Shown here: positions 40,202-64,000 of the stretch, piece by piece | Numbering within the stretch: position 1 is the first letter of the stretch | How the letters are laid out: every line of letters starts with the position of its first letter | Assembly (NCBI GenBank): GCA_030433215.1 | Contig: JAUIMC010000006.1 | Coordinates: 119,588-183,587 of the forward strand | Reading direction: 5' to 3' | DNA length: 64,000 nt | Origin: Alphaproteobacteria bacterium | Lineage (GTDB): Bacteria; Pseudomonadota; Alphaproteobacteria; Caulobacterales; Parvularculaceae | Notes under the pieces: generated by a model | What the model was told of the DNA's origin: nothing | The model's database searches: none | The model's input: only the letters and a program-made list of their open reading frames with translations | Program-made: the position numbers and the translations under genes

Positions 40202-43200
40202 CTAGAAGTTCACCCGCGCGCCCAGCACGAAACGCCGCCCCAGGACGTCGAACAGGGACGCGTTATATTGCTGCGCATAGCCGAGAAACGCGCTGTAGTA
40301 AGGCGTCACCGGCGGATCCTGATCGAGCAGATTGGTCATGGTGCCGTAGAACTCAATCCCGGCCCCGCTGTCGAGTTCATGACGATAGGTCAAACCCAGA
40401 TCGACATAGAAGGCGCTGTCGACATGGTTGCTGGCTATGTCGACGCCTTCCTCAAGGCTGTTCTCGATCGTGCCGCTGCCGATATAGCGCCCTTGCAGGA
40501 AGGTGCGCAGCGGCCCGTTCTCATAGGTGAGATTGGTCGTGAATTTGAACTCCGGCAGCGCATAGGCGAAGCCGTCGGATTGCTGAATGCCCGTCTGGCC
40601 GGCCCTGTCGATCTTGTCCGTGCCGGCGAGGGTTTCTGAATTTTCTTCCAGCCAGGTGCCGAAGAATCTCCAGCCCACGGACTCCTCGCCGCCAAAGAGG
40701 CTGACATCGCGCTGATAAGACGCCTCAAGATCAATGCCGCTGATCTTGGCTTCATCGACATTGATGAACACATCGCCGATCAGCACGATGCGGTCCGTCA
40801 TGGTGTCACGCGTGACGAGGGAACACAGATCCGTCGCCCCTTCCTCGCAGCGGTCGGCCACCGCCTGCACGCCAAGCTGGCCGATCGCGTCTTTGATTTC
40901 GACCTGATACCAGTCCATGGAAAGGGACAGACCTTCAACAAAAGATGGCTGATAGACGAAGCCCACGGTGATCGTGTCGGCTTTTTCCGGAGAGACTTCC
41001 GGGTTGCCGCCGGAGAACCGGGTCACGTTGATGGCGCCATCGCCGGGATAGCGCGGATCGGTGAGCGTCGCCGAACCGCCCGTCTTGTCGAAGCGTTCGG
41101 AAAGATTGGCGGCGCGCACGTCACGCGAATAGGTGCCGCGCAAGCGGAAATCTTCCGTCACCTGCCAGTCGAGGCCGCCTTTCCACGCCCAGATGCTGCC
41201 CGATCCGGAATAATCGGCCCAGCGCGCCGCGCCGTGCAGCGTCACCTGCTCCATCAAGGGCGCGTCCGCGATCAGCGGCACCAGCAATTCGGTGAACGCT
41301 TCTGTGACCGTGATCTTGCCGTTGATGTTCGAGACTTTCGAATATTGCAGGCCGACCGTATTGGCGCAGTCCGGCGCGCTGACGCCGCGCAGGCCAGCGG
41401 CGATGGCTTCGGGATCGCTGTCGCACAAGACCGGACGCGCGTCCTCATGGTCGGAGGCCGGGTTTGTCGGGTCCCGCACGATCTGGCGGATTTTTTCCTC
41501 GCGATGCGACCCGCCGATTGCCATGGAGATCGGTCCCGCGCCCCAGCCCTCATAGAGCTCGCCATTCGCCGACAACTCGAACAGGTGCTGGCGCATATTG
41601 GTGATGTTCAGCTTCGCTTCCTGCGTGGTGTAGGTGTCCATCAGGCCGAGATCGTAACCGCTGTCCGCAAAGAAAAGCGGTGTGGTGATGGTCTGACCGG
41701 GCTCGTACCCGACCACCCAGTCCACCGCTTCGGGCGAGGCGTTGCCGCGGCCGAAGAGGTTGAGCGGTTCGCAGTCGGCGAACATGTCGTTGAATAATGT
41801 CGTGCGGCAGACGATCTCGTCCGTTTCCGGATCGCGCACCGCATCGACGGCGGCGTGAATGCGGTCGACGCGCAAGCCCACCTGGTACCATTTCCGGGTG
41901 TTGCGGCCATATTGGTAATAGCCGTCCACAGCCCAGTCATTCATAAAGCCGCCGCTGTCGATCTGCCAGTTAAAGCCGCCGGTGATCGAGTGCAGAACGC
42001 TGTCATCGGAGATGCGCATGTCGGCGCCGATATCCTGCAGGCTGCCCATGCGCTTTAACGTGAAGGAGTCGATGTCCTCATCGATCATGGTTTGCCGCAC
42101 GGCGTCAGGCAGGAACGCATTGTCCTGAAAGATCGTGATCGAGGTCGGCGTGCCGTGCAACGAACCGCGCGGCGTGTTGTATTGCGAAGTCTTGTTCTGG
42201 CCCCGAATATATTGCGCAAAGACCGTGAAGTTGTCGGCCACTTCATAATCGGCGTAGGCGAAAATATTGTTGCGGTCGACATCCGGATAGAGCGACGGCG
42301 CCTCGGCGCCGAGATCGTCGCCGCTGCCGCCATTGGTGATCGAATGTCGCGCCGGCGGAATGCCGAACGGAAGGGCGGTCACCGAACTCGTCACGAACGG
42401 CATAATGCCCGACCCGTCTTCCAGAAACTCTGTCTGATTGAGTGATGTTCCAGGCGCCACAATGATGCCGTCAAAACTGGAATTGCGCGACACCACATCG
42501 GGAACAATCTGCCCGACGCCGCCCGCATCGGGAATGACGCTCCAGCCCTGATACCAGTCCCGGTCCTTGTAACTGAAGACGCCGTCCTGGGCGAACAACT
42601 CGCCGGACACCAGAACATGGCCGCGATCGCCGATATCCGCGCCGAAAGACGCGGATATCTCGTAATTATCGCTGTCGCCCCGCGTGGTGGAGCCCCACTG
42701 GGCGTGCGCCTGGCCGCCCGTAAAGTCCGTGTCGAGAATGAAGTTCGTGACGCCTGCGACAGCGTCGGTGCCGTAAGCCGCCGAAGCGCCGCCGGTAACG
42801 GTCTCGACCCGGCTGATCATCGCTTCCGGAAAGGCGTTGATGTCGACGCCGCCGAAAGCCGTCGACGAAATCATTCGCCGGCCATTCAGAAGGGTCAAGG
42901 TGCGGTTAATACCGAGCCCGCGCATATTGAGGTTGCCGTAGCCGCCGCGGATAAACCAGCCGTCGGCCGAATTCGGCGTCTGGTTGCCGAAAAATTGCGG
43001 CAACTGGCTGACGCCCTCGATGATATTTCCCGGCGCCATGGTTTGGAGAATTTCCGCATCGACCGCCGTCACGGGAACCGGTGTTTGCATGCCGGTCTGG
43101 CTGATCCGCGTGCCCGTCACCATGATGACGTCGTCGTCGCCCTCGCCCTGCGCGTAGGCCGGCATCATGCTCAACCCCAGCGCAGCGCAGGCCAGGCTAT

Positions 43201-52187: not shown

Positions 52188-52260
52188 TTTTCGCGAAATG
52201 CGGCGCGCAGCATGGCATAGAGGCTATCTAGGATGGTCGAATAATGCGCCTGCGCGAAAA
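52188..52260 (+). other. nested inverted repeats in the leader of the MetF-like gene
   Basis: TTTTCGCG (52188-52195) pairs with CGCGAAAA (52253-52260); inside it GGCGC (52202-52206) can pair with GCGCC (52246-52250), and ATAG/CTAT (52217-52227) forms a small inner hairpin. The structure ends 12 bases before the GGAGG ribosome site. It does not match any riboswitch class I can recognise. Confidence 0.3.
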
Positions 52261-52285
52261 GCGTCCCGGTCGGAGGAAACCTGTT

Positions 52286-53167
52286 ATGTCATATGCTGAA
52301 ATCCACCCTAACTGGGAGACCTTGTCTTCCGACATGTTGGACGGCTACTCCCTGGAGATTACCGCCAAGGACGTTCCCTCGCTGCGCGAAGCCGCGCCCA
52401 TGATCGCCCCGCAGACGCCCATCGCCGTCACTTTCCTTCCCGGCGAGGAGATGGAAGACCGCATCAACGCGGTGAAGGCGGTGCGCGAGCTCGGTTTCGA
52501 ACCCATGCCGCACGTCTCCGCCCGGCGCATCCAGTCGCAGGCCATCCTCGAGAACATGCTCGAGCGCGTGACCGGCGAATCCGGCGTGAAACGCATCTTC
52601 CTCATCGCCGGCGACCCGCCGACCCCGGAAGGGCCGTTCGAGGATTCCCTCCAGGTCATCAAAACCGGCCTTCTGGAGAAAAACGGCATCAAGGCGATCG
52701 GCATTGCGGGCCATCCCGAAGGCCACCCCAATGTCTCACGCGACGAGCTTTGGGTCTGGATGGAAAACAAGATCGCCGACATTCGCGATCGCGGCATGCT
52801 GCCGATCATCGTCACGCAGTTCGGTTTTTCCGCCGAGCCCTTCCTTGACTGGCTCGAGGAAATGCGCGCGCGCGGCATCGACGCGCCGGTGCGCATCGGC
52901 GTACCGGGACCGGCGGGCATCAAGCGCCTGCTCGGCTTTGCGGCGCGCTGCGGCGTCGGCGCCTCGGCGGCGGTGATGGCGAAATACGGCGTCTCGCTCA
53001 CGAAGCTGATGGGCACCGCCGGACCGGACAAGCTGGTCGGCGCCATCGAGGAAGGGCTCGACTTCAACAAGCATGGCCGCGTGCGGCTTCACTTCTATCC
53101 CTTTGGCGGCCTGCCCAAGACGCTGGAATGGATTCACGAACACGAGAAAAAACGCGGCCTCAGCTAA
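52286..53167 (+). CDS. methylenetetrahydrofolate reductase-like protein
   Basis: A 293-residue TIM-barrel protein of the MetF family, which reduces methylenetetrahydrofolate to methyltetrahydrofolate or runs in reverse in C1-oxidising pathways. Family-like segments are SLEITAKDVPSLREAA, PMPHVSARRIQSQAILENML, RIFLIAGDPPTPEGPFEDSLQVI, IAGHPEGHPNVSRDEL, IIVTQFGFSAEPFLDWLEEMR and VRIGVPGPAGIKRLLGFA. ATG 52286 follows CGGAGG. It differs clearly from housekeeping MetF and resembles catabolic paralogues that recycle methyl-folate during demethylation; no demethylase gene is in view. Confidence 0.82.
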   Translation: MSYAEIHPNWETLSSDMLDGYSLEITAKDVPSLREAAPMIAPQTPIAVTFLPGEEMEDRINAVKAVRELGFEPMPHVSARRIQSQAILENMLERVTGESGVKRIFLIAGDPPTPEGPFEDSLQVIKTGLLEKNGIKAIGIAGHPEGHPNVSRDELWVWMENKIADIRDRGMLPIIVTQFGFSAEPFLDWLEEMRARGIDAPVRIGVPGPAGIKRLLGFAARCGVGASAAVMAKYGVSLTKLMGTAGPDKLVGAIEEGLDFNKHGRVRLHFYPFGGLPKTLEWIHEHEKKRGLS

Positions 53168-53254: not shown

Positions 53255-53623
53255 ATGGCTCCTTTGCGATTACATTTGAAAATGGCGGCGGCAGGCCTTG
53301 CCCTGACGGCGACGGTTTCCACCGGCTTCGCGGCGAACGAAACCGAGACGGAGGCCGAGGCGCCGCAACTTTCAGAGGAGCAAATCGCAGCCGGGCGAGA
53401 CATGTTCCGCACCTGGTCCTGCGGCAGCTGTCACGTGCTGGCGGACGCCAAAGCCATGGGGCCGATCGGGCCGTCGCTCGATAACAACCCGAACCTCACT
53501 TATGAGTTCGTGGTGAACCGCATCGCCAATGGCCAGGGCGCCATGCCGCCTTATGGCGGACAGCTGAAGGACGAGCAGATCGCGCAGCTCTCCGCCTATA
53601 TCATGCAGGTTTCAAAGAAATAG
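53255..53623 (+). CDS. periplasmic class I cytochrome c
   Basis: A 122-residue exported mono-haem cytochrome. Signal peptide to about residue 27, then an acidic linker, the haem-binding CGSCH (Cys56, Cys59, His60) and the likely axial Met97 in GQGAMPPYGG. It is a candidate electron acceptor for the PQQ dehydrogenase encoded 1 kb away on the other strand. Its TAG stop is part of a 16-base palindrome shared with the stop of the next gene. Confidence 0.93.
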   Translation: MAPLRLHLKMAAAGLALTATVSTGFAANETETEAEAPQLSEEQIAAGRDMFRTWSCGSCHVLADAKAMGPIGPSLDNNPNLTYEFVVNRIANGQGAMPPYGGQLKDEQIAQLSAYIMQVSKK

Positions 53624-53636
53624 GCGCCGGCGCCTA
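53621..53636. terminator. perfect palindrome joining two convergent TAG stops
   Basis: TAGGCGCCGGCGCCTA is a perfect 16-base palindrome. Its first triplet is the stop of the cytochrome gene and its last, on the other strand, is the stop of the double-VOC gene. It parallels the hairpin at 8203-8217. As RNA it can only fold with a minimal loop; a terminator role is not proven. Confidence 0.4.
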
Positions 53637-54536
53637 ATTATCGGGATTGCCGCCGACCTGCGCGAAGTAATTCGTCACGCCGCCCGGATCGTTCAGCCAG
53701 ATAAAACGCAGATCGAAGCCCGGAAGACCGCCAAGCGGCGTTTCCACCGTGACATTGCGCGCCCTGGCTTTCGCATCGACGGCGTCGACGTCATTCACCA
53801 CATATTGCATGCCGGCGCTGCCCGTATCGGCCGGCAAATCTTCGCCCGCCGACCAGACATTCACAGTCGTCGCACCGTTGCGATAGGGATATTTCGTGAC
53901 GCCGAGCAGCTCGTCCTCGACCGCCGGCAATTCGTCGAGCCCGACAAATTCGCGGTAAAAGCTGCGGCTTTCTTCCAGATCGGCGGCATTGACCCCGACC
54001 TCGACCTTTTCATAGGTCTCCGGCGGCGCGTCCGGCGCGACAACAAGCTTTAAGGTGAACCCGCCCGGATCTTTCACCAGCGCGGCGCGCGCGCCATCGC
54101 CGATATCCGTAAACTCAGGCGCGGCGGCGCCGAACGCTTCAAACCGCGCCTTCAACGCCGCTTCGTCGGGGAAATAGAGCGTGAAAAGACGGATGCCCGT
54201 CCCGTCCTTGACCTCGCCCAGGTGATATTGCCGGTCTTCCTTGAGGCCCGTCGCAAGCTTGATCTGCGCGCCGCCGATCTTGAACAGGATCATCTCCATG
54301 TCGCCGAGATCGATGGGCTGCAAGGGCTCGAGGTCCAGCACTTCGTCATAGAACCGGATCATCGCTTCGCGGTCTTCATCAACGAAACGCCGGTAGACGT
54401 TCATGGAGTCCTGAACGATCACGGGCCGCACGGAGTTCATCGTTTCGGCCTTTTGTGTTGCGTGCTCTTCAGCAAAAGCGGACGGCGCCGCGAGGGCCAG
54501 TCCGAGAAACAAGGCTGTCTTCAAACGCATCTGCAT
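53634..54536 (-). CDS. exported double-VOC (glyoxalase-fold) protein
   Basis: A 300-residue protein with a signal peptide ending APSAFAEE and two VOC half-domains: about residues 37-160 (NVYRRFVDEDREAMIRFYDEVLDL ... VKDPGGFTLKLVV) and 172-295 (YEKVEVGVNAADLEESRSFYREFVGLDEL ... IWLNDPGGVTNYFAQV). VOC proteins include glyoxalases, extradiol dioxygenases and epimerases and are usually cytosolic; export is uncommon. It follows the PQQ dehydrogenase gene by 15 bases, so the two are co-transcribed. Reaction unknown. Confidence 0.82.
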   Translation of the reverse strand: MQMRLKTALFLGLALAAPSAFAEEHATQKAETMNSVRPVIVQDSMNVYRRFVDEDREAMIRFYDEVLDLEPLQPIDLGDMEMILFKIGGAQIKLATGLKEDRQYHLGEVKDGTGIRLFTLYFPDEAALKARFEAFGAAAPEFTDIGDGARAALVKDPGGFTLKLVVAPDAPPETYEKVEVGVNAADLEESRSFYREFVGLDELPAVEDELLGVTKYPYRNGATTVNVWSAGEDLPADTGSAGMQYVVNDVDAVDAKARARNVTVETPLGGLPGFDLRFIWLNDPGGVTNYFAQVGGNPDN

Positions 54537-54551
54537 GACTTCCTCTCCTCT

Positions 54552-56489
54552 TTATTCCGGCAGCGCGTAAACCACGAGGGATTCGTTGTTCAGCGGCATG
54601 CCGTCCGGCCCCGTCGCGCCGACGCCGAAATTCGCCGCCATGACCGCCACATATTGCCGGCCGTCCTTGCCGAGATAAGTGACCGGCACGGCCTGCGCGT
54701 GATAGTCGAGCGTCGTCGTCCACACTTCTTCGCCGGTTTTGGAATCGAAGGCGCGGAAGCGGTGATCGTTCGTGGCGCCGATAAAGACGAGCCCGCCGGC
54801 GGTGACGATGGGTCCGCCGAACGTGTTGTGCGTGCCTGTCGCCCACTTGTCCTCGGGCAACCCTTCGCTGACGCCGAGCCGCGTCTCCCAGGCGATTTCG
54901 CCGGTATTTGCGTCGATCGCAAAGAGGCGCCCCCAGGGCGGGCGGATGCACGGCAGGGTGATTTTCTCGCCGTCTTCATTTTCAAAGCTGGCGCTGAAGC
55001 TCGTATAGGCGCCGGGGCCGGAAAGACTGGCGCGGTCGTAAACCTGGTTGGAGCCGCCGGTGCCGCGTCCATAATCGGCGCCCTCTTTGCGCTTTTCGGT
55101 AAAGCCGATGCTGCCGCCGGTGCTGGAGTTCACGTAGATATAGCCGGTGGTCGGGTCCGCAGCGCCGCCGCCCCAATTGGCGCCGCCATTATGCGGAATG
55201 TTGATCGACGCTTTCACGGGCTTGCCTTCCTCATAGAGGAAAAACGGCGTGAACGCGCCCGAGTTGAAGAACGTCCCGCCATAGGTGTCGAGCAGCGCGT
55301 GACAGGCCGCCACATGCTCTTCATTTGTGTCTTCGGGCGTGACGATGTCTTCCGGCGTCCAGTCGCTGCGCGACAGGCGCGGCGGCTTCACCGGGAAAGG
55401 CTGCGTCGGCGAATACCATTCGCCCGGCACGTCGCCGGCCTCAACGGGCCGCTCCTCAACGCCGAACACAGGTTCGCCCGTCTCGCGGTCGAGAATATAC
55501 ATGAAGGCCGTCTTGCCGGTTTCGGCGAGCGCAGGGACCTTCTTTCCGTCGACCTCGATATCGAGGAGCACCGGCGGCGCCGGCAGATCGGAATCCCAGA
55601 GATCGTGATGAATGGTCTGGAAGTGCCATTTATACTCGCCGGTCAGCGCGTCAACGGCGACCACGGAATTGCCGAACAGATTGTCGCCGGGCCGGTCGCC
55701 GCCATAATAGTTCGCAGACGGACCGCCGACCGGCATGTAGAGCGTGTCAGTGTCCTCATCGACGGTCATGTACCAGATCCAGACATTGGTTCCGGACCGG
55801 CCTTTCCAGCCGTCATCGAGCCAGGTGTCATGGCCGACTTCCCCGGGGCGCGGCACGGTGTGAAACGTCCAGAGTTTCTCTCCGGTGCGCGCATCGAAGG
55901 CGCGCGAGTCGCCGGGCTCGCCAACCTGCATCTCAAGTACATTGGCGCCGATGATCAGCACATTCTTGTAAACAGTCGGCGGCGAGTTGTAGCCGACGTC
56001 GAGCGCGATGGCGCCGTCATCGCCGAACGCCTTGTCGACCTCGCCGGTCTCAGGATCGAGCGCGACAATGGATCTGCCGCTGGAATAGAAAATCCGCGCG
56101 CCGTGCTCGCCGTCGCCGGGCCAGTAGGAAACGCCGCGGCGGGCGAGCCCGCCGGTCACGCCATGGCGCCAGAGCTCTTCGCCTGTGTCGCCGTCAAGCG
56201 CCACCACCGCGTCACCGATAGGAAGATAAAGCACCGTGTCGATGACGATGGGCGTCGCGGAGCTGACCAGCATGCCGCCGCCTTCGGGCTTGACGCGGAA
56301 AGACCAGGCCTCGGTCAGTTCCGCAACATTCTCCGTGTTGATCTGATCGAGCTGGGAATAGCGCGTGCCTTCGAGATTGCCGGCGTAACGCGGCCAGTCG
56401 CCCGCCTCAAGCGAAGGCCCGCCGGAACTGGCGCAGGCGCCGAGGCCGATCATTGCGGCGGCGGAAACCGAGGCAATCCGAAGTCTCAT
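54552..56489 (-). CDS. PQQ-dependent dehydrogenase lipoprotein (quinoprotein glucose/alcohol dehydrogenase type)
   Basis: A 645-residue eight-bladed propeller enzyme that oxidises an alcohol or sugar in the periplasm and passes electrons to cytochrome c or quinone. Signal ends MIGLGAC (lipobox). Propeller-blade W motifs recur (DWPRYAGNLEGTRYSQLDQI; GDTGEELWRHGV; DARTGEKLWTFHT; DALTGEYKWHFQTIHHDLWD; DANTGEIAWETRLG; DSKTGEEVWTTTLDYHAQAVPVTY). No haem motif and no vicinal Cys pair typical of methanol dehydrogenases, so it needs a separate acceptor such as the cytochrome at 53255. Substrate unknown. A very long antisense frame over it is a codon-bias artefact. Confidence 0.9.
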   Translation of the reverse strand: MRLRIASVSAAAMIGLGACASSGGPSLEAGDWPRYAGNLEGTRYSQLDQINTENVAELTEAWSFRVKPEGGGMLVSSATPIVIDTVLYLPIGDAVVALDGDTGEELWRHGVTGGLARRGVSYWPGDGEHGARIFYSSGRSIVALDPETGEVDKAFGDDGAIALDVGYNSPPTVYKNVLIIGANVLEMQVGEPGDSRAFDARTGEKLWTFHTVPRPGEVGHDTWLDDGWKGRSGTNVWIWYMTVDEDTDTLYMPVGGPSANYYGGDRPGDNLFGNSVVAVDALTGEYKWHFQTIHHDLWDSDLPAPPVLLDIEVDGKKVPALAETGKTAFMYILDRETGEPVFGVEERPVEAGDVPGEWYSPTQPFPVKPPRLSRSDWTPEDIVTPEDTNEEHVAACHALLDTYGGTFFNSGAFTPFFLYEEGKPVKASINIPHNGGANWGGGAADPTTGYIYVNSSTGGSIGFTEKRKEGADYGRGTGGSNQVYDRASLSGPGAYTSFSASFENEDGEKITLPCIRPPWGRLFAIDANTGEIAWETRLGVSEGLPEDKWATGTHNTFGGPIVTAGGLVFIGATNDHRFRAFDSKTGEEVWTTTLDYHAQAVPVTYLGKDGRQYVAVMAANFGVGATGPDGMPLNNESLVVYALPE

Positions 56490-56694: not shown

Positions 56695-56721
56695 GCGGCG
56701 GCGCCGCAAAAACGCCGCCGC
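56695..56721 (-). terminator. hairpin after the small secreted protein gene
   Basis: GCGGCGGCG / CGCCGCCGC is a 9-bp stem with a 9-base loop, 14 bases past the stop of the small gene. A second hairpin TATGCG / CGCATA follows at about 56675-56690. T-tracts are short, so termination is likely but not certain. Confidence 0.5.
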
Positions 56722-56734
56722 CGTCAGTGCGCGA

Positions 56735-56992
56735 TCAGTTAATCTCGGGAAAGCACTGAAGCCCGATTTCTTTCATTTCGTCCGAGGCGTCGCTCTCCCA
56801 GTCCGAAACATTGTTCACATAGTCTTCGGCCTGTTCGTCGGTCATGGCGCCGACAAAGCAGGCGCACTGGCCTTCGGGGTCGGGAGACCCGAGCGGCTCC
56901 ACCACGGAGACGCATTTGTCCATGGCCTCGCCCGCAAAAGCGCTGGTCGAAAACAGCAGCGCGCCGGCGATCATCGCGATTTTAGTCTTCAT
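56735..56992 (-). CDS. small secreted protein with four cysteines, unknown function
   Basis: An 85-residue precursor with a clear signal peptide MKTKIAMIAGALLFSTSAFA and a mature acidic domain of 65 residues holding four Cys (KCVSVVEP; GQCACFVG; LQCFPEIN). GAGGAGGAAATTCA before the ATG is a strong ribosome site. The pattern with one Cys near each end and a CxC in the middle suggests two disulfides. It lies between the PQQ dehydrogenase gene and the hydrolase gene; a composite IclR-type site 108 bases upstream ties it to the adjacent catabolic genes. I do not recognise the family. Confidence 0.82.
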   Translation of the reverse strand: MKTKIAMIAGALLFSTSAFAGEAMDKCVSVVEPLGSPDPEGQCACFVGAMTDEQAEDYVNNVSDWESDASDEMKEIGLQCFPEIN

Positions 56993-57099
56993 TGAATTTC
57001 CTCCTCTTGGCCGGGACGTGAGACCGTGGTCCAGCCATTATACCGCCGCCGGAAACGGCGGACGGGCGGTTTTTCGAACGGATGAGAACGCAACAGAAA

Positions 57100-57131
57100 T
57101 TCGATATCCGAATTTTCTTTCGGATATCGCA
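57100..57131. promoter_or_regulatory. composite IclR-type site C
   Basis: Reads TTCG-ATATC-CGAA, six bases, TTCG-GATAT-CGCA, so it fits the composite pattern TTCG-N5-CGAA-N6-TTCG-N5-CGAA except one base in the last quartet. It also contains an 11-bp inverted repeat CGATATCCGAA / TTCGGATATCG. It lies upstream of the small secreted protein gene and past the 3' end of the hydrolase gene. Confidence 0.65.
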
Positions 57132-57214
57132 ATCGTATGCCGGGGCCTGAACACTGTCAAACCTCAGCCGGGTGAAATTCGCGGCCACGCCAATTATCTG
57201 TACGGGAATTAATA

Positions 57215-58030
57215 TCAGCCGAGCGTGTCGATGAAGGCCGCAAACACATCGTTATATTGCGCCGGGTTGCACAGATTGCACAAATGCCCGGCGTTTTCGA
57301 TGGTCGCCCTTTGCGCACTCGGCGCGCCGTTCGCAATGGCGTCGGCGACGCGCCGGCGCGCGGCCGTTTCCTGATCGCCTGTGACGACCAGCATCGGCGC
57401 GCCAAGGCTCGACAGCGCATCCGGACCGACATTAAGGCGCGAAGGCGGCGCCAAAAGATCGCGGCCGTCATAAGTCTGAAGAATGGCGTCGACGATTTCG
57501 CGCGCCTTCGCATTGGTCACATGCATGAGCGGGTGTGCGCGCCAGGCCTCACGCATCTCGTCAATTTTGCCGGCGCGTATGAGCGCGCTGTATTCGCCCA
57601 CTGGGATCACTTCCGCCTCGTTCGCAGCCGGCCTGAAGCCGTCAAGCTGCGCGCCCTGAAGCACAAGCGCCTTGACGCGCACCGGGTGGCGCAGCGCGCA
57701 GTCGAGCGCGATGCGGCCAGCCTGGGACATGCCTACAAGGACGCAAGATTCTATGGAAAGCGCGTCGAGAATGGCGACGACGTCATCGGCTTCCTTGTCG
57801 AGGGCCGGCGGCGCCGTCGAACGCCCGAAGCCGCGCCGGTCAGGCGCGATTACCGCCTGCCGCGCCGACAGGGCCTCCATCTGCGGCGCCCACATGCGCC
57901 AGTCGAGGGTCCAGCCATGCAGAAACAGGATCGGCGCGCGCGCTTCGCCGCTTGCGCTTTCGCGCCATGCGATTTCCAGATCGCCGCCCTCAACGGCAAG
58001 CTGAATAATCTGCGTCGCCGCGCCGCCCAT
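57215..58030 (-). CDS. alpha/beta-hydrolase, ring-cleavage or enol-lactone hydrolase-like
   Basis: A 271-residue cytosolic serine hydrolase. Oxyanion-region ILFLHGWTLDWRMWAPQM, the DRRGFGRS loop, the nucleophile elbow VLVGMSQAGRIALDCAL (Ser in GMSQAG), the acid region PMLVVTGDQE and the catalytic His in IENAGHLCN are all present. The shape is that of PcaD/BphD-like hydrolases that open lactones or cleave C-C bonds of ring-fission products. Last gene of TonB-wrbA-VOC-hydrolase, all read leftwards; the VOC gene ends 22 bases upstream. Confidence 0.87.
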   Translation of the reverse strand: MGGAATQIIQLAVEGGDLEIAWRESASGEARAPILFLHGWTLDWRMWAPQMEALSARQAVIAPDRRGFGRSTAPPALDKEADDVVAILDALSIESCVLVGMSQAGRIALDCALRHPVRVKALVLQGAQLDGFRPAANEAEVIPVGEYSALIRAGKIDEMREAWRAHPLMHVTNAKAREIVDAILQTYDGRDLLAPPSRLNVGPDALSSLGAPMLVVTGDQETAARRRVADAIANGAPSAQRATIENAGHLCNLCNPAQYNDVFAAFIDTLG

Positions 58031-58052
58031 CAGACCTCACGCATCAGCGCGC

Positions 58053-58586
58053 CTAGCGATAGTCGTTGTTGTTGTGGTGATCGCCTTCAAGCCAGCGCTT
58101 CAGTTCCGAATGCGCCCTGCCCCGCCATTCCTCGGCGCGGTCGACGGCGTCCGGAAGATCGAGCACGAATTCGACAATCATGCCGTTCGGATCGACCACA
58201 TAGACCGAGCGGCAATAACCGTGTTCGAGCACATAGGTGTCAGGCTCTTTAAAGCCCGCCTTGGCGATGCGTTCTTCCATGGCGGCCTGCGTGTCCGCAT
58301 CCACATCGAGCGCGATATGATGAAACGGAGACGGCGGCATTTCAGGTCCGAACTCAGCCTGGTCCGCAGGGTCCGCGAACTGGAAAAACGCCAGCGCGCT
58401 GCCGTCGGCGATGCCGAAAAAGCAATGGATATAGGTGCGCTCTTTTCCGAACAGCACGTCCTTTTCGCACCATGTCGCCACAAGCGGAAATCCGAGAACA
58501 TCCTCGTAGAACTTCCGCGTCGCTTCCATGTCCTTGGTGACGTAAGCGGTGTGATGCAGCCGGTTTGGCAGGGATCCCTTCGCCAT
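58053..58586 (-). CDS. VOC-family protein, extradiol dioxygenase/glyoxalase-like
   Basis: A 177-residue cytosolic VOC protein. It begins LPNRLHHTAYVTKDMEATRKFYEDVLGFPLV, with His in the first metal position, then FHHIALDVDADTQAAME with the second His, and SVYVVDPNGMIVEFVLDLP with the metal-type Glu. These three ligands fit an iron- or manganese-dependent dioxygenase or isomerase. Being next to the hydrolase gene it could produce that enzyme's substrate; this is inference. The start is ATG 58586 behind AGGAGACGCGAGACA. Confidence 0.85.
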   Translation of the reverse strand: MAKGSLPNRLHHTAYVTKDMEATRKFYEDVLGFPLVATWCEKDVLFGKERTYIHCFFGIADGSALAFFQFADPADQAEFGPEMPPSPFHHIALDVDADTQAAMEERIAKAGFKEPDTYVLEHGYCRSVYVVDPNGMIVEFVLDLPDAVDRAEEWRGRAHSELKRWLEGDHHNNNDYR

Positions 58587-58633
58587 TGTCTCGCGTCTCC
58601 TTTAATACGATGTTCGCCAGATCGCGCCCGCCC

Positions 58634-59236
58634 TCAACCGGCGAGACGCGCTGCGGTTTTGGCCACATGGCGGCCCTGAAACTTTGCGCCTTCAAGCTCG
58701 TTCTCGCTCGGCATGCGCGCGCCGTCGCCGCCGGTGATGGTCGAGGCGCCGTAAGGCGTGCCGCCGCTGAGCTCGCTCATGATCGACGCGCCTTCCCACT
58801 CGTAAGGCAGGCCGACAATAATCATGCCGTGATGAAGAAGCGTCGTATGGAACGACGTGATCGTCGTTTCCTGGCCGCCATGCTGGCTGGCGGTCGAGGT
58901 GAAGACGCTGCCGACCTTGCCCACAAGCGCGCGCGACATCCACAACGGCCCCGTCTGATCGAGGAAGTTGCGCATCTGCGCGGCCATGTTGCCGAAGCGC
59001 GTCGGCGTGCCGAAGATGATGGCGTCGTAATTTCCAAGTTCGCCGGGCTCAGCGATCGGCGCATCCTGATCCAGCTTGACGCCGGATTTGACGGCGATCT
59101 CCTCCGGCACGATTTCTGGCGTGCGCTTGACGTCGACCGTCACGCCGGAAACGGAGGCCGCGCCCTCGGCGATGGCTTTCGCCATCGCCTCGACATGACC
59201 GTAACTTGAATAATAAAGCACCAAAACCTTGGTCAC
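58634..59236 (-). CDS. wrbA: NAD(P)H:quinone oxidoreductase, WrbA family
   Basis: A 200-residue flavodoxin-like enzyme that reduces quinones by two electrons with FMN. The FMN-binding loop [23 protein letters not shown], the [19 protein letters not shown] motif and [13 protein letters not shown] are characteristic of WrbA. In this catabolic unit it may reduce a quinone formed from an aromatic substrate or protect against it. It follows the TonB receptor gene by 37 bases. Confidence 0.93.
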
Positions 59237-59273
59237 TAATGTCTCCTTGCTCGGCTACGGGCGCGCAAGCCGT

Positions 59274-61526
59274 TTAGAACCGTACGGTCAGGTCAACGCC
59301 CCACCGCATGGGCTGCGCCTTGAACAAAAACCCGCCGGGAGAATATTCGGTATTGTACTCCTCGTCGAACAAGTTCTTCGACCAGAACATCAAAGACCAG
59401 TGATCATTCATGATCCCGGCGCGCAGATTGACGAGATCGACGGGATCGCGGGCCACCGGCATGGCGTCGAGGGCAAGCTCGGGCGCGCTGAACGGGATCG
59501 TGAAGATCGTATCGCCCAAGCGGTTGTAATCGACGCGGATCAGCCCTTCGATATCGCCCCAGAGCGGCGCCTGATATTCCGCGCCGACATTGAGGGTGTA
59601 TTCCGAGACCAGCGGCGCCTGGGCGCCGATGGCGACGGGGTCCGGGAATTCCGTGATTTCGCTGTCGGTGTAGCCAAAGCCCGCATTGAAGGCGAAGTTG
59701 TCGGTCACCTGCGCGTTCAGCTCCACATCGAAGCCCTTATACTCGACCTCGTCGATATTGCCGAGATTCTGGGTCGAGTTGGCGGCGATGAAGACGAAGA
59801 AGTAAGTGCCTTCGGCCTTGGTGTAATAGCCGCTGGCGTTGAGATTGACGCGGCCGTCCATGAAGGCGGATTTGAAGCCGGCTTCATAGGTGTTCGCGGT
59901 TTCCTGATCGAACAGATCGCCGACATTGAAAAATCCGCCGGACGACGCCAGCGCGCCGACGCCCGTCTGGTTAAAGCCGCCGCTGCGGAAGCCGCGGCTA
60001 TAGCTGGCGAACAGGTTGAGATTGTCGCTCGCCGCATAGCTCAGGATCGCCTGGGGCTGCCAGTCGTCCCATGAGTTTTCACGCACCAGGCCGGAGCTGC
60101 AGGTCGGTCCCGGCGTGCAGGGCAGGAAAGCCGATGGCGTCAGCGTCGTGTTTTCGCGCTTGTCGTGGTCGTAGCGCAGGTTGAGCGACAGCTCGAGACT
60201 GTCGGTGATGTCGTAGGACGTGTTGAGATAGACCGCCCAGGCGAACTGATCCTGCGCATCCGCGAGGAAGGTGAGCTGCGGATGGTCCGGATCGGTGCTC
60301 GGCTCGCGGTAGACCGGAATGACGCCCATGCCGGTGTCGATCTGGTTGCCCGTCGAGATATAGCGGTCGGTCGCATAGATCTGACCGCCGACAATATAGC
60401 GGAAACGGTTTTCAGCGGGCGAGGTGAACCGCACTTCCTGCGTAAACGTATCGACATCCAGGAACTGCGTCTGGCTGAAGTTGAAGCCGACCCGGTTGAT
60501 CGGGAACGGCCCGAACGGGTCGAACGGATAGCCGTCGCCGGTCAGCAATTCCTCGACGCTGTTATAGCCGGTGATCGAGGTGATCGTGCCCGCATCCGTC
60601 TCATAGGACAGCTTCAGCGCGGCGTCGTAAATATCGCGCTCGTTGGTGCCCGAGTTATTCAGATCGATGGGACGGTCCGTATAGTTCGGGTTATTGAAAT
60701 TCGGATTGGAGAAATCCGGGATCACGTAATAAAGCGCGCGGGTTTCGAGGATGTCCGCGGACAAGCGCAGATCGGCGCTGAAATTATCCGTCGGCTCATA
60801 AAGGAAGGACAGGCGCGCATTCAGATCCTGGACGGGATCGACATTCTCTTCGGCGCTCGCATCGGCCGTGTTGACATTGGTGAGGTGGCCCTCCGTGTCG
60901 AACCAGGAGACAGAGCCGCGCATGGAGAAGTCATCGCCGAGCGGCACAGTGACGGCGCCCTGCACCTTGTAGCCGGGCCCGGATTCATAGCCGGCCGTGA
61001 ATTTTCCTTCGAACTCGTCGCCGGGTTTTTTCGTCGTGATGACAATGGCGCCGCCGATTGCGTTGCGTCCGTAAAGAGCGCCTTGCGGTCCCTTCAGGAC
61101 TTCGATCTGTTCAATGTCATAGAGCGCCTGGTTGAATTGAGCCGGCTGCGTCATCGGCACGCCGTCAACGACGATCGCGGCGGACGGTTCGCTGTTGCGC
61201 GCCTGTGAAATGCCGCGAATGACAAGAAAGCTCGTCCCGGCGTTCTGCGTTTCAACGAAGGTGACGTTCGGCACCTGCTCGATGAAATCCGACGGCCGTT
61301 CGATGCCGCGGTTCTGGATCGCCTGTTCATTCAGAACAGTGACCTGCGCGGGAACGTCGATAATGGATTCGTCGCGCCGGCGCGCAGTGACCACGATGCG
61401 GTCGCCTGAGGACGCCATGGTCCCGTCGCCGCTGTCGGATTGCGCCCATGCAAATGAAGGCGTGAAAAACGTCGCCAAGGCCGTAGCCGACAACAAGGCG
61501 CGCGCATGTTTCGATGCAATGCCCAT
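59274..61526 (-). CDS. TonB-dependent outer-membrane receptor of the catabolic locus
   Basis: A 750-residue outer-membrane importer. ATG 61526 follows GGGAGGAACTAG and begins a signal peptide ending FFTPSFAWAQ; the frame upstream is rejected. The TonB box is IVVTARRRDESI, and the plug carries PAQVTVLNEQAI, SFLVIRGISQARN, YDIEQIEVLKGPQGALYGRNAIGGAIVITTKKP. The barrel ends AQPMRWGVDLTVRF. This class is typical of receptors near aromatic and terpenoid degradation genes in sphingomonads. First gene of the unit TonB-wrbA-VOC-hydrolase; its promoter overlaps composite site A. Confidence 0.93.
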   Translation of the reverse strand: MGIASKHARALLSATALATFFTPSFAWAQSDSGDGTMASSGDRIVVTARRRDESIIDVPAQVTVLNEQAIQNRGIERPSDFIEQVPNVTFVETQNAGTSFLVIRGISQARNSEPSAAIVVDGVPMTQPAQFNQALYDIEQIEVLKGPQGALYGRNAIGGAIVITTKKPGDEFEGKFTAGYESGPGYKVQGAVTVPLGDDFSMRGSVSWFDTEGHLTNVNTADASAEENVDPVQDLNARLSFLYEPTDNFSADLRLSADILETRALYYVIPDFSNPNFNNPNYTDRPIDLNNSGTNERDIYDAALKLSYETDAGTITSITGYNSVEELLTGDGYPFDPFGPFPINRVGFNFSQTQFLDVDTFTQEVRFTSPAENRFRYIVGGQIYATDRYISTGNQIDTGMGVIPVYREPSTDPDHPQLTFLADAQDQFAWAVYLNTSYDITDSLELSLNLRYDHDKRENTTLTPSAFLPCTPGPTCSSGLVRENSWDDWQPQAILSYAASDNLNLFASYSRGFRSGGFNQTGVGALASSGGFFNVGDLFDQETANTYEAGFKSAFMDGRVNLNASGYYTKAEGTYFFVFIAANSTQNLGNIDEVEYKGFDVELNAQVTDNFAFNAGFGYTDSEITEFPDPVAIGAQAPLVSEYTLNVGAEYQAPLWGDIEGLIRVDYNRLGDTIFTIPFSAPELALDAMPVARDPVDLVNLRAGIMNDHWSLMFWSKNLFDEEYNTEYSPGGFLFKAQPMRWGVDLTVRF

Positions 61527-61603
61527 CCCTAGTTCCTCCCTAAAAGCATCGTTGTTCGCCGGGCGGTTCTCCGCCTCTTTAGGCCAGCGATTCTTGCGGC
61601 GGC

Positions 61604-61645
61604 ATCGTAAAACTTCGTAGATCGAAGTCAAGTTCGATATTCGAA
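61604..61645 (-). promoter_or_regulatory. promoter and composite IclR-type site A of the TonB receptor unit
   Basis: Site A (61614-61645) reads TTCG-TAGAT-CGAA, GTCAAG, TTCG-ATATT-CGAA on the plus strand. On the minus strand a -35 element TTGACT (61626-61631) lies between its two dyads and a -10 TACGAT (61604-61609) follows after 16 bases. The dyad at 61614-61626 therefore covers the promoter spacer, as expected for repression. Confidence 0.7.
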
Positions 61646-61711
61646 ATCCAGATAGCGCACACAGCGTCACGCCCCGGCTTTCGCCGGGTCTCGCAGCCAT
61701 GGGACGGGGCT

Positions 61712-62524
61712 TCAGTCGCTGCTGAGGGAATGGGAAATATAGGGGTGGCGCGACAGCGCCGTCTGGATCTCCCGCGCCGCGCGCTGGAGCACCGGCACAT
61801 GGGCGCGGATCAGCTCATCGACAGAGATCCGGGTCGTCGAGGTCGAGCAGTTAACGGCCGCCACGATCCGCCGTTCGCGGTCGAAAACCGGCGTCGACAC
61901 GGAAACGATGCCGTAATCAAGCTCGTCGAGCGCGGCGGCGTAGCCGTCCTCGCGCACTTTCGCCAGGACTTTGCGTAGCTCGCCGGGATCGGTGACGGTG
62001 CGCTCGGTGAAGCGCGTCAGCGGCGCAGTCTCCAGATAGTGCTCAAGCGCCTCATCGGTCTGGAAGGCCAGCAGCACCTTGCCGAGCGAGGTCGCATGGG
62101 CCGGAAACCGCGTTCCCACATTGGCGCTGAGGCGGATCGGGCGCAGCGTCGAGACATGCGCCACATAGAGAACGTCGCGCCCGGACAGAACCGCCATGGA
62201 CGAGCTGTCGCCGGTTTCGTCGCGCACCGCCTGAAGAAAGGGCAGCGCCACCGTCTCGAGATTCATCGAGGAAATATAGGACCAGCCGAAGGCCAGCACT
62301 TCCGGGCGCAACAGGAAACGGCGCCCATGCTTGGCCACATAACCAAGCTTCACCAGCGTGTTGAGGCAGCGGCGCGCCACCGCGGGGCTGAGATTGGTGA
62401 CGGCGGCGACTTCGCTGAGCTGCATTTCCGGGCGGCTCTGGTCGAAGGCGCGCAACACGGAAAGCCCGCGTTCCAGCGTCGAGAGGTATTCCGGCTCCTT
62501 TTCGGAGTTCTTGGCCCTGGCCAT
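61712..62524 (-). CDS. IclR-family transcriptional regulator
   Basis: A 270-residue regulator of the PcaR/PcaU/PobR branch. The N-terminal winged helix spans about residues 14-70 (STLERGLSVLRAFDQSRPEMQLSEVAAVTNLSPAVARRCLNTLVKLGYV), and the effector domain has RLSANVGTRFPAHATSLGKVLLAF, YAAALDELDYGIVSVSTPVFD and a C-terminal ALSRHPYISHSLSSD. It lies between the CoA-transferase gene and the TonB unit, all on the minus strand. The three composite sites in this region make it the obvious candidate regulator, including of its own operon. Confidence 0.94.
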   Translation of the reverse strand: MARAKNSEKEPEYLSTLERGLSVLRAFDQSRPEMQLSEVAAVTNLSPAVARRCLNTLVKLGYVAKHGRRFLLRPEVLAFGWSYISSMNLETVALPFLQAVRDETGDSSSMAVLSGRDVLYVAHVSTLRPIRLSANVGTRFPAHATSLGKVLLAFQTDEALEHYLETAPLTRFTERTVTDPGELRKVLAKVREDGYAAALDELDYGIVSVSTPVFDRERRIVAAVNCSTSTTRISVDELIRAHVPVLQRAAREIQTALSRHPYISHSLSSD

Positions 62525-62604
62525 GCGCGGCGCCTTAAAAATTCTAGCGCCGTGGCTTATCGCGCTCCGGCGGCGAAATCCAGCACTGAGCGCGCATTGG
62601 CCGG

Positions 62605-63753
62605 TTACTCGGCCGCATTCTTGGCCGAGCGGCGGCCGAGAATTTCTTCATTATGCTCGCCGAGGGTCGGCGGCGCCTTCACCTCGCTCGTACGTTCGCG
62701 GTCGAAACTGATGGGCGAGCGCACGGTGCGGAATTCGCCCATTTCCGAATGCGTGTCCTTGAGCTCAAGGCCGAGATGGCGCGCCTGCGGGCTATCGAGC
62801 ACTTCCGGCGGATTGCGCAGCGGCGAATGGGGGACTTCGCCTTCCGCCAGCCGCGCGCACCATTCCTCGAGCGTGCGGGTCTTGAAGATCGGCGCCAGAA
62901 AATCGTTCACCCCTTCGTAATTCGCGATGCGCGCATTGCGGTCGGCGAATTCCGGACGGTCGAGCATGTCCGGCTGGTCCACGGCTTTCGCGAGGTTTTC
63001 CCAGAATTTCGGCGGCGAGGACATGTGCAGCGCCAGCCAGCGCCCGTCGCCGCATTCGAAGACATAGGACTGCGAAACATGCGGGCGGCTATAGGGGCCC
63101 ATGATCTCGCCGGCGGACAGGTAATGGGTGAAGTCGTCGAGATTGAAATGGCACATCGCCTCGAACATCGAGGTCTCGACGAGGCGGCCTTTGCCCGTGC
63201 GTGCGCGTTCATTAAGCGCCGCGAGCGTCCCAAAGGCCGCGTAAAAGCCGGTGACCGCATCGCCGATCGCCGGGCCGACCACGCGGGGATGTTCCGGATT
63301 GACGAGCAGGCGCAAAAAGCCGCTGGCGGCCTGCGCGACGCTGTCGAAGGCCGGACGCTCCTTGTCCGGACCATCGGGGCCGAACCCGGAAATCGAACAG
63401 TAAACGAGTTTCGGATTGATCTTTTGCAGGCGCTCGTAATCGACATTGAGGCGGCCCGCGACGCCGGGCCGGAAATTCTGGATGAAGACATCCGCCTCCG
63501 CCACGAGCCGGTCCAGCGCCGCCAGATCTTCCTCGTCTTTGGTGTTCAGCGTGATGCTGCGCTTGTTGCGGTTATATGTCCGAAAGTGCGGACTGTAGAG
63601 CTCGCCCTTGAACGCCCGAAAAGGATCGCCGGTTACAGGCTGCTCGATCTTGATGACATTCGCGCCGAGGTCGGCAAGCAACATGCCCGCCGCAGGCCCA
63701 GTAATGAAAGTGCCCATTTCGAGCACCGTTATATCTTTGAGCACTTTAGCCAT
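62605..63753 (-). CDS. CaiB/BaiF-family (type III) CoA-transferase
   Basis: A 382-residue cytosolic enzyme that would move CoA onto an organic acid. Family blocks are LEMGTFITGPAAGMLLADLGANVIKIEQP, GDPFRAFKG, YNRNKRSITLNTKDEEDL, DVFIQNFRPGVAGRLNVDY, YCSISGFGPDGPDKERPAFDSVAQAASGF, GDAVTGFYAAFGTLAALNERARTGKGRLVETSMFEAM and the C-terminal LGLELKDTHSEMGEFRTVRSPI. I could not assign the nucleophilic Asp with certainty by eye. First gene of the CoA-transferase/IclR unit, with composite site B upstream. It would activate the acid handled by this locus; the acid is unknown. Confidence 0.92.
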   Translation of the reverse strand: MAKVLKDITVLEMGTFITGPAAGMLLADLGANVIKIEQPVTGDPFRAFKGELYSPHFRTYNRNKRSITLNTKDEEDLAALDRLVAEADVFIQNFRPGVAGRLNVDYERLQKINPKLVYCSISGFGPDGPDKERPAFDSVAQAASGFLRLLVNPEHPRVVGPAIGDAVTGFYAAFGTLAALNERARTGKGRLVETSMFEAMCHFNLDDFTHYLSAGEIMGPYSRPHVSQSYVFECGDGRWLALHMSSPPKFWENLAKAVDQPDMLDRPEFADRNARIANYEGVNDFLAPIFKTRTLEEWCARLAEGEVPHSPLRNPPEVLDSPQARHLGLELKDTHSEMGEFRTVRSPISFDRERTSEVKAPPTLGEHNEEILGRRSAKNAAE

Positions 63754-63872
63754 CGGACTGCTCCCTGGACTTTAGACATTGAGCGGCGTTGCCTTACACG
63801 ACACCATGCGCACGGAGCTTTGCGCGCTTGATCAAGGTTTGATCCTCAAAATCTGGCGTTCTCCTTGACATT

Positions 63873-63915
63873 TCTATAGAAAATTCGAATAACGAAGACA
63901 AGTTCGGAATGCGAA
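63873..63915 (-). promoter_or_regulatory. promoter and composite IclR-type site B of the CoA-transferase/IclR unit
   Basis: Site B (63884-63915) reads TTCG-AATAA-CGAA, GACAAG, TTCG-GAATG-CGAA. On the minus strand a -35 TTGTCT (63896-63901) lies between its dyads and a -10 TATAGA (63873-63878) follows after exactly 17 bases. The geometry is the same as at site A. Confidence 0.72.
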
Positions 63916-64000
63916 ATTTTTGCGCGCTTCCAATCGAGCGCATGGCAAACCGGCTCAAACATGCGATTTCACCTGAGGGGTTTAGCGCCCGGCTCAGATG

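Follow-up and report, generated by a model that had tools for sequence, protein, structure and literature searches.

In the accessible part of the survey by Suvorova and Gelfand (2021, PMC8222616), operators of the IclR family of regulators fall into two motif types. As far as that part goes, the group 1 palindrome reads GKTYCRY-W3-RYGRAMC, tandem palindromes with centres 18-22 nt apart occur in 94 orthologous groups and are read as tetramer sites, and three-box sites are found in 32 groups. The PcaU motif given there, TTTGTTCGATWATCGMACAMA, contains a TTCG-N5-CGMA dyad, the P. putida PcaR motif has the same dyad frame, and the sites of PcaU, PobR and HmgR have a direct half-site in addition. 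We analysed a 64,000-nucleotide stretch of DNA (the window throughout) from a genome of the alphaproteobacterial family Parvularculaceae, in which three 32-bp double-dyad sites, named A, B and C, lie in front of genes of a single iclR locus. Judging from sequence comparison, these sites are likely operators for the locus's own IclR protein, probably bound as two dimers, which would repress a predicted regulon for the uptake and breakdown of an aromatic (hydroquinone-type) compound.

The sites resemble the group 1 tandem operators of that survey, so far as its accessible part describes them. The dyad centres of the 39 exact sites that we read lie 19 nt apart, inside the published range, a spacing set by our search pattern, and the central three bases of their 78 dyads are 94% A/T. 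They differ in their genes (a TonB receptor, a citryl-CoA-lyase-like protein and methionine-synthase-like proteins) and in that one operator here overlaps two predicted divergent promoters. PcaU, PcaR and PobR (protocatechuate and 4-hydroxybenzoate breakdown) share with our regulator the neighbourhood of model TIGR02431 and, in the motifs available to us, the dyad; PcaU, PobR and HmgR have a third direct half-site where a second full dyad stands here. A preliminary description of this DNA had presented the double-dyad layout as a distinguishing feature. With published tandem palindromes in 94 IclR groups and the same dyad in PcaU and PcaR, that claim does not hold, and the layout is therefore already known; our regulator group may even be among the 181 orthologous groups of the survey. 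PheR of Sphingobium sp. SHPJ-2 is, in the part of its report that could be consulted (PMC13273656), an IclR repressor that links aromatic uptake and breakdown in a sphingomonad and affects TonB functions; unlike the system here, it has the minimal motif GCAACG, another operon and another substrate.

The composite site and its probable regulator

The pattern scored was the 32-bp TTCG-N5-CGAA-N6-TTCG-N5-CGAA, with 16 fixed bases. A and B match it at all 16 bases and C at 15, at the positions first proposed, and A and B share, as had also been noticed, a G-CAAG linker with one variable base (GTCAAG in A, GACAAG in B). The expectation that 16 fixed bases lie beyond chance in 64 kb was borne out: the window holds three matches of at least 15 bases, against a mean of 0.003 (largest 1) in 300 dinucleotide shuffles of the window, and two full matches, against zero in 300 shuffles. 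A chance origin was rejected for these sites. At up to three mismatches the window contains A, B, C and one other match only, at 42176 (three mismatches). These four are a mild excess over shuffle means of 1.02 (with four matches in 4 of 100 shuffles) and 1.09, and the match at 42176 was dropped as a further site and read as chance.

Across the genome from which the window comes (3.75 Mb, 37 contigs), exact matches are not scattered, which answers a concern of the preliminary description: they are A, B and a second copy of B on another contig (C12). No further regulon members were found in this genome; a tolerance of two mismatches adds one match, on contig C19 inside long open frames, and a reversed control pattern gives four matches at the same tolerance.

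We then compared the occurrence of the exact site and the regulator in three samples: 100 relatives including the own genome (regulator threshold E 1e-60 with one sequence; the citryl-CoA-lyase-like gene was searched here as well), 385 genomes across the class and 199 genomes of one family (both at E 1e-80 with alignment A1). Site, regulator and lyase-like gene are each present in six of the 100 relatives, the same six, so that sites were found in every relative of this sample keeping both genes. The class sample has the site in 4 of 385 genomes and the regulator in 3, all with the site; the family sample has the site in 15 of 199 and the regulator in 14, again all with the site. After dropping repeats (5 and 4 genomes), the pooled 675 genomes include 21 with the regulator and 23 with the site, 21 having both, and the site occurs without the regulator in 2 of 654 genomes. 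The hypergeometric test of co-occurrence gives ~7e-38, a value that overstates independence, given the kinship of the genomes and the position of the sites within the cluster. The reversed control pattern was seen in 1 of the 100 relatives and 1 of the 385 class genomes. Nine of the 15 site-bearing family genomes were read (G421, the six loci L085-L090, and G589 and G671, which correspond to loci L031 and L032 by coordinates or site sequence); in G480, G498, G582, G633 and G643 the coordinates place the regulator between or near two exact sites.

The positions of the sites were read in 19 loci, comprising the window, ten loci from named genomes, G273, G421 and the six family loci. The ten loci came from a scan of named genomes (regulator 61-93% identical) and include Parvularculales, Sphingomonadales and the gammaproteobacterium Aestuariibacter salexigens; over the 19 loci the regulators are 59-93% identical to the window's. 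A site precedes the TonB receptor gene in all 19, at 16/16 in 18 and at 15/16 in Aestuariibacter, and lies in the iclR-receptor gap in 17 (exceptions L032 and L087). In 18 of 19 loci (exception L032) the gap that separates caiB from the lyase-like gene holds site B at 16/16; this count includes the window, whose contig stops short of the lyase-like gene. Site C stands at 15/16 before the small gene in all four loci in which this gene was found (the window and three relatives), all of the window's family. In L026, L027 and L028 the contig stops short of where site C would lie; in the other loci read the small gene had no match (tblastn thresholds 1e-5 to 1e-12).

The strongest case against mere linkage is made by rearranged loci with sites at moved genes. 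In L085 and L090, VOC and hydrolase lie behind the lyase-like gene and are headed by an additional 16/16 site, a relocated methyltransferase gene of L090 has its own 15/16 site, and the receptor operon of L087 is on the opposite side of the lyase-like gene, still headed by a 16/16 site. Moved genes are usually headed by new sites. Together, conservation, co-occurrence and the sites at moved genes strongly support the proposal that the regulon is tied to the encoded IclR protein.

The bases outside the fixed positions vary freely. The 39 exact sites, from 20 loci (the 19 and C12), have 37 distinct sequences, and the N5 spacer takes 42 forms among the 78 dyads. The TYCR and YGRA boxes of IclR group 1, five bases apart with a W3 centre, accommodate TTCG-N5-CGAA. 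We also observed that the inner boxes of every composite read CGAA-N6-TTCG. The IclR group 2 motif permits this spacing, and the four alternating boxes thus fit both motif arrangements; tandem and three-box forms may therefore be one alternating four-box array.

Predicted promoters, proposed repression and rival readings

Promoter boxes were read by consensus, and a promoter scan, whose rule demands a T at the end of the -10 box, returned five matches in 56700-64000, the receptor and small-gene promoters among them, where shuffles average 2.2. The caiB-iclR promoter is unlisted by the scan because it has only 8 of 12 consensus bases, and the divergent promoter at B because the rule needs the terminal T. 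The predicted promoters (Table 1) place one dyad over the promoter spacer at A and B, as first described. Their conservation was scored at 12 A, 13 B and 4 C sites, with L032 and L085-L090 left out. A TTG in the linker register is present at 12/12 A sites and 13/13 B sites, while the best-scoring -10 differs in spacing and quality among loci. In 36 of the 39 exact sites the linker contains TTG or CAA, in agreement with a -35 box at this place, and in three it contains neither. Site B has TTGAC[AT] on its other strand, at offset -19 in 10 of 13 copies and at -20 in one; in those ten, AATAAC, AATATC or AATAGC falls 17 nt on, inside dyad 1. No TTGAC was found within 60 nt on that side at any of the 12 A sites. 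With the divergent -35 box in 11 of 13 B copies and the -10 in dyad 1, a single operator seems to cover two divergent promoters. TTGACA lies 29 nt ahead of all four C sites, two of which keep the TACGAT -10.

In the mechanism that we propose, the IclR protein would bind A, B and C as two dimers, one per dyad, both on one face of the DNA, the centres being 19 nt (about two turns) apart. At A and on the caiB side of B it would repress by covering the -35 box and spacer, at the divergent promoter of B by covering the -10, and at C by covering the predicted start. An aromatic pathway compound would release repression. The regulator would also repress itself through the caiB-iclR unit, because caiB and iclR share one direction behind site B. 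Repression by promoter overlap had been put forward from the start; it is plausible, it is backed by the offsets, which differ between A, B and C, and it stays something that we infer. As the operator sits at three offsets (over the -35 and spacer, over the -10, and just after the -10), we prefer steric repression over a single activating geometry.

Several observations weigh against this account. Co-occurrence is partly linkage and shared descent, and the 21 genomes are not 21 independent events. Two genomes, G106 and G602, hold one exact site each (L057 1891-1922 and G602:C1:2076485-2076516) without this regulator; both were kept in the counts, and their sites are either chance or sites of another protein. 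The G106 site lies on a 3.1-kb contig with no match to the 16 query proteins, next to what by eye is a Tct-type binding protein. The spacer ends show no enrichment for the published Y (40/78) and R (28/78), in a consensus that is an average over many groups. Receptor promoters score only 7 to 9 of 12 and the L031 caiB promoter 5 of 12, and the divergent -35 box is absent at 2 of 13 B sites. The MetE2 genes (the second methionine-synthase-like gene) of L031 and L085 run in their own direction with no site of at least 15/16 in front. The 20 kb read at L085, L086, L089 and L090 showed no MetE1, the first such gene, neither methyltransferase was found in the L055 or L033 loci, and wrbA was not found in the L088 or L032 loci. 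Parasphingopyxis marina (L032) has a rearranged set of three sites, two of them only 15/16: the 16/16 site precedes a receptor gene without a match to that of the window, one 15/16 site heads a P450-caiB-iclR stretch, and the other stands before the lyase-like gene. The first of these 15/16 sites (in L032 6561-8546) has a transporter gene on one side and on the other a 225-aa gene, then a P450 gene and caiB-iclR, which suggests a lineage-specific extra regulon member.

PcaU, PcaR and PobR, the closest relatives that have been characterised, are activators, and activators of this group can work from a site at the -35 box. This background also counts against repression and keeps activation or dual control as the main rival: the same IclR protein would bind the sites mainly as an activator, or as an activator with inducer and a repressor without. 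The regulator scores near the PcaR/PcaU/PobR model (268.6 bits), its second-best match in the PDB is 8eju, named a Pca-regulon regulatory protein, and at A and caiB the site centre is at the -35 box; the three operator offsets to the predicted promoters misfit one activating geometry, and we consider this rival unlikely. We give far less weight to the idea that the sites belong to another regulator sharing the cassette, which would be surprising. Another gene of the genome does match the IclR-type model distantly (68.1 bits), and binding by our IclR is deduced, yet the site is present in all 21 genomes with this regulator, the dyad is of the published PcaU/PcaR type, so far as the accessible motifs go, and this other IclR gene lies well away from that group. 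That the repeats are chance or a structural feature (hairpins, terminators) without a regulator is close to refuted: a terminator-like hairpin can be drawn at site C (57129-57102), but the chance level is 0.003, the 16 fixed bases are kept while spacers and linkers drift, and the positions are tied to predicted promoters and gene starts.

Genes of the locus and the predicted pathway

Repression by the encoded IclR would join the genes listed in Table 1. The gene identities given earlier (CoA-transferase, IclR, TonB, wrbA, VOC and hydrolase) were confirmed by Pfam, and wrbA by NCBIfam as well. The small secreted protein announced behind C stands in part: an 85-aa gene is there, it has no Pfam match, and "secreted" is a by-eye reading of its N-terminus. 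Against TIGR02431, the PcaR/PcaU/PobR model, the regulator scores 268.4-268.6 bits, under the curated cut-off of 284.75, and is therefore not filed under that subfamily; at E 1e-10 its genome has two matches to the model, of which this regulator is the best.

Table 1. Coordinates of the putative operators, predicted promoters and genes in the window
Feature	Position	Strand	Details
Site A, composite operator (putative)	61614..61645	.	TTCG-N5-CGAA twice, two 13-bp dyads 19 nt apart; iclR-receptor gap; 16/16
Site B, composite operator (putative)	63884..63915	.	Divergent gap between caiB and citryl-CoA-lyase-like gene; 16/16
Site C, composite operator (putative)	57100..57131	.	Precedes small 85-aa gene; 15/16
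Receptor promoter (predicted)	61604..61631	-	-35 TTGACT 61626-61631 in A linker; 16-nt spacer with one dyad; -10 TACGAT 61604-61609
caiB-iclR promoter (predicted)	63873..63901	-	-35 TTGTCT 63896-63901 in B linker; 17-nt spacer over dyad 1; -10 TATAGA 63873-63878
Divergent promoter toward citryl-CoA-lyase-like gene (predicted)	63865..63893	+	-35 TTGACA 63865-63870; 17-nt spacer; -10 AATAAC 63888-63893 inside B dyad 1
Small-gene promoter (predicted)	57132..57160	-	-35 TTGACA 57155-57160; 17-nt spacer; -10 TACGAT 57132-57137; 10/12 consensus; next base starts site C
IclR-family regulator	61712..62524	-	HTH_IclR 53.7 bits, IclR_C 158.3 bits, both above cut-offs; near PcaR/PcaU/PobR group
CaiB-type class III CoA-transferase	62605..63753	-	PF02515 (CoA_transf_3), E 5.1e-109
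TonB-dependent receptor	59274..61526	-	750 aa, ATG at 61526; PF00593, PF07715
WrbA-type NAD(P)H:quinone oxidoreductase	58634..59236	-	TIGR01755 309.1 bits (cut-off 132.5); Pfam FMN reductase/flavodoxin
VOC protein, predicted hydroquinone-type ring-cleavage dioxygenase	58053..58586	-	Pfam glyoxalase/VOC
Alpha/beta hydrolase, PcaD-like	57215..58030	-	PF00561; TIGR02427 104.5 bits, under cut-off 255.85
Small 85-aa protein	56735..56992	-	Signal-peptide-like start, conserved Cys; orthologues in 3 relatives; no Pfam match

The window ends at the end of contig C35, and the second gene set of B therefore sits on another contig. On C12, the far side of B carries the citryl-CoA-lyase-like gene, two genes like cobalamin-independent methionine synthase (MetE1 and MetE2) and a transporter gene. 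A 467-aa protein (L006 2491-3894) is encoded between the two methyltransferase genes; it has no Pfam or NCBIfam match and has relatives in L025, L026 and L027. Marinicaulis flavus (now Hyphococcus luteus) shows the unbroken order: methyltransferases, lyase-like gene, B, caiB, iclR, A, receptor, wrbA, VOC, hydrolase, C and small gene. C12 starts partway through another caiB copy (95% identity across 85 aa), and site B is intact there. Between L006 1-513 (G000:C12) and window 63499-64000, 225/255 coding and 178/246 gap positions are identical, and site B and its next bases are unchanged despite the drift of the gap; the gap of the C12 copy is nearer to that of Marinicaulis flavus (222/269). One regulator and one lyase-like gene were found in the own genome, and the C12 copy of caiB and site B may represent either a paralogue or another strain within the assembly.

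Beside the regulon, window 53255-56489 encodes a PQQ-type (pyrroloquinoline quinone) dehydrogenase, a VOC protein and a small cytochrome c, which among the loci searched are matched at the same place only in Marinicaulis flavus. A methylenetetrahydrofolate-reductase-like protein (52244-53167) near the regulon is also kept in Marinicaulis flavus, and a weaker relative (40%) adjoins the cluster in L027; it may serve the one-carbon handling of the pathway.

In the predicted pathway, the TonB receptor would take up an aromatic substrate, WrbA would keep the quinone reduced, the VOC enzyme would open the ring and the hydrolase would act on the product. The CaiB protein and the citryl-CoA-lyase-like protein would make and split a CoA thioester, and the methionine-synthase-like proteins would move a methyl group to a thiol. 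The VOC protein agrees with the small homogentisate-type VOC dioxygenase 9u42 in overall fold and in metal and acid-base residues. What speaks against this substrate is that it rests on remote homology, the VOC protein being ~25% identical to its best match, with glyoxalase and Fos-type folds close behind.

The closest PDB entry to MetE1 is 3rpd, called a MesD core methionine synthase by Price et al. (2021, PMC7857596, available in part). MetE1 shares with MesD the homocysteine residues S, E, D and the zinc ligands H, C, E, C, the Glu of the latter being read from the alignment with 3rpd; residue roles follow that paper. It differs from MesD by its place in a catabolic regulon. It scores 276.8 bits against the nearest NCBIfam model, NF006589, under the cut-off of 392, and MetE2 matches 3rpd far more weakly (25.5 bits). 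No MesX gene was recognised among the neighbour proteins scanned with Pfam, no genome-wide search having been made. Nothing fitting a published cluster with these genes was found in the open-licence full-text literature, PMC12478193, so far as it is accessible, does not concern these genes, and the pathway seems undescribed. It is possible, if well short of probable, that the locus encodes an undescribed route for a methylated or methoxylated hydroquinone. There, a small VOC dioxygenase would open the ring, the CaiB and citryl-CoA-lyase-like pair would split the CoA thioester and folate-free MesD-type enzymes would pass the methyl group to homocysteine, while one IclR tetramer, having travelled with its operators between bacterial classes, would close two divergent promoters with a single 32-bp operator.

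Meaning of the shared site

The operator logic is known for the IclR family, and it is the pathway that is likely new biology, its main puzzle being methionine-synthase-type enzymes inside a ring-cleavage regulon. Through the shared site, loosely named genes become one co-regulated set of receptor, quinone reductase, dioxygenase, hydrolase, CoA-transferase, lyase and methyltransferases. In the pooled sample the 32-bp tag picked out this gene set with few false positives, and via site B the substrate becomes directly testable.

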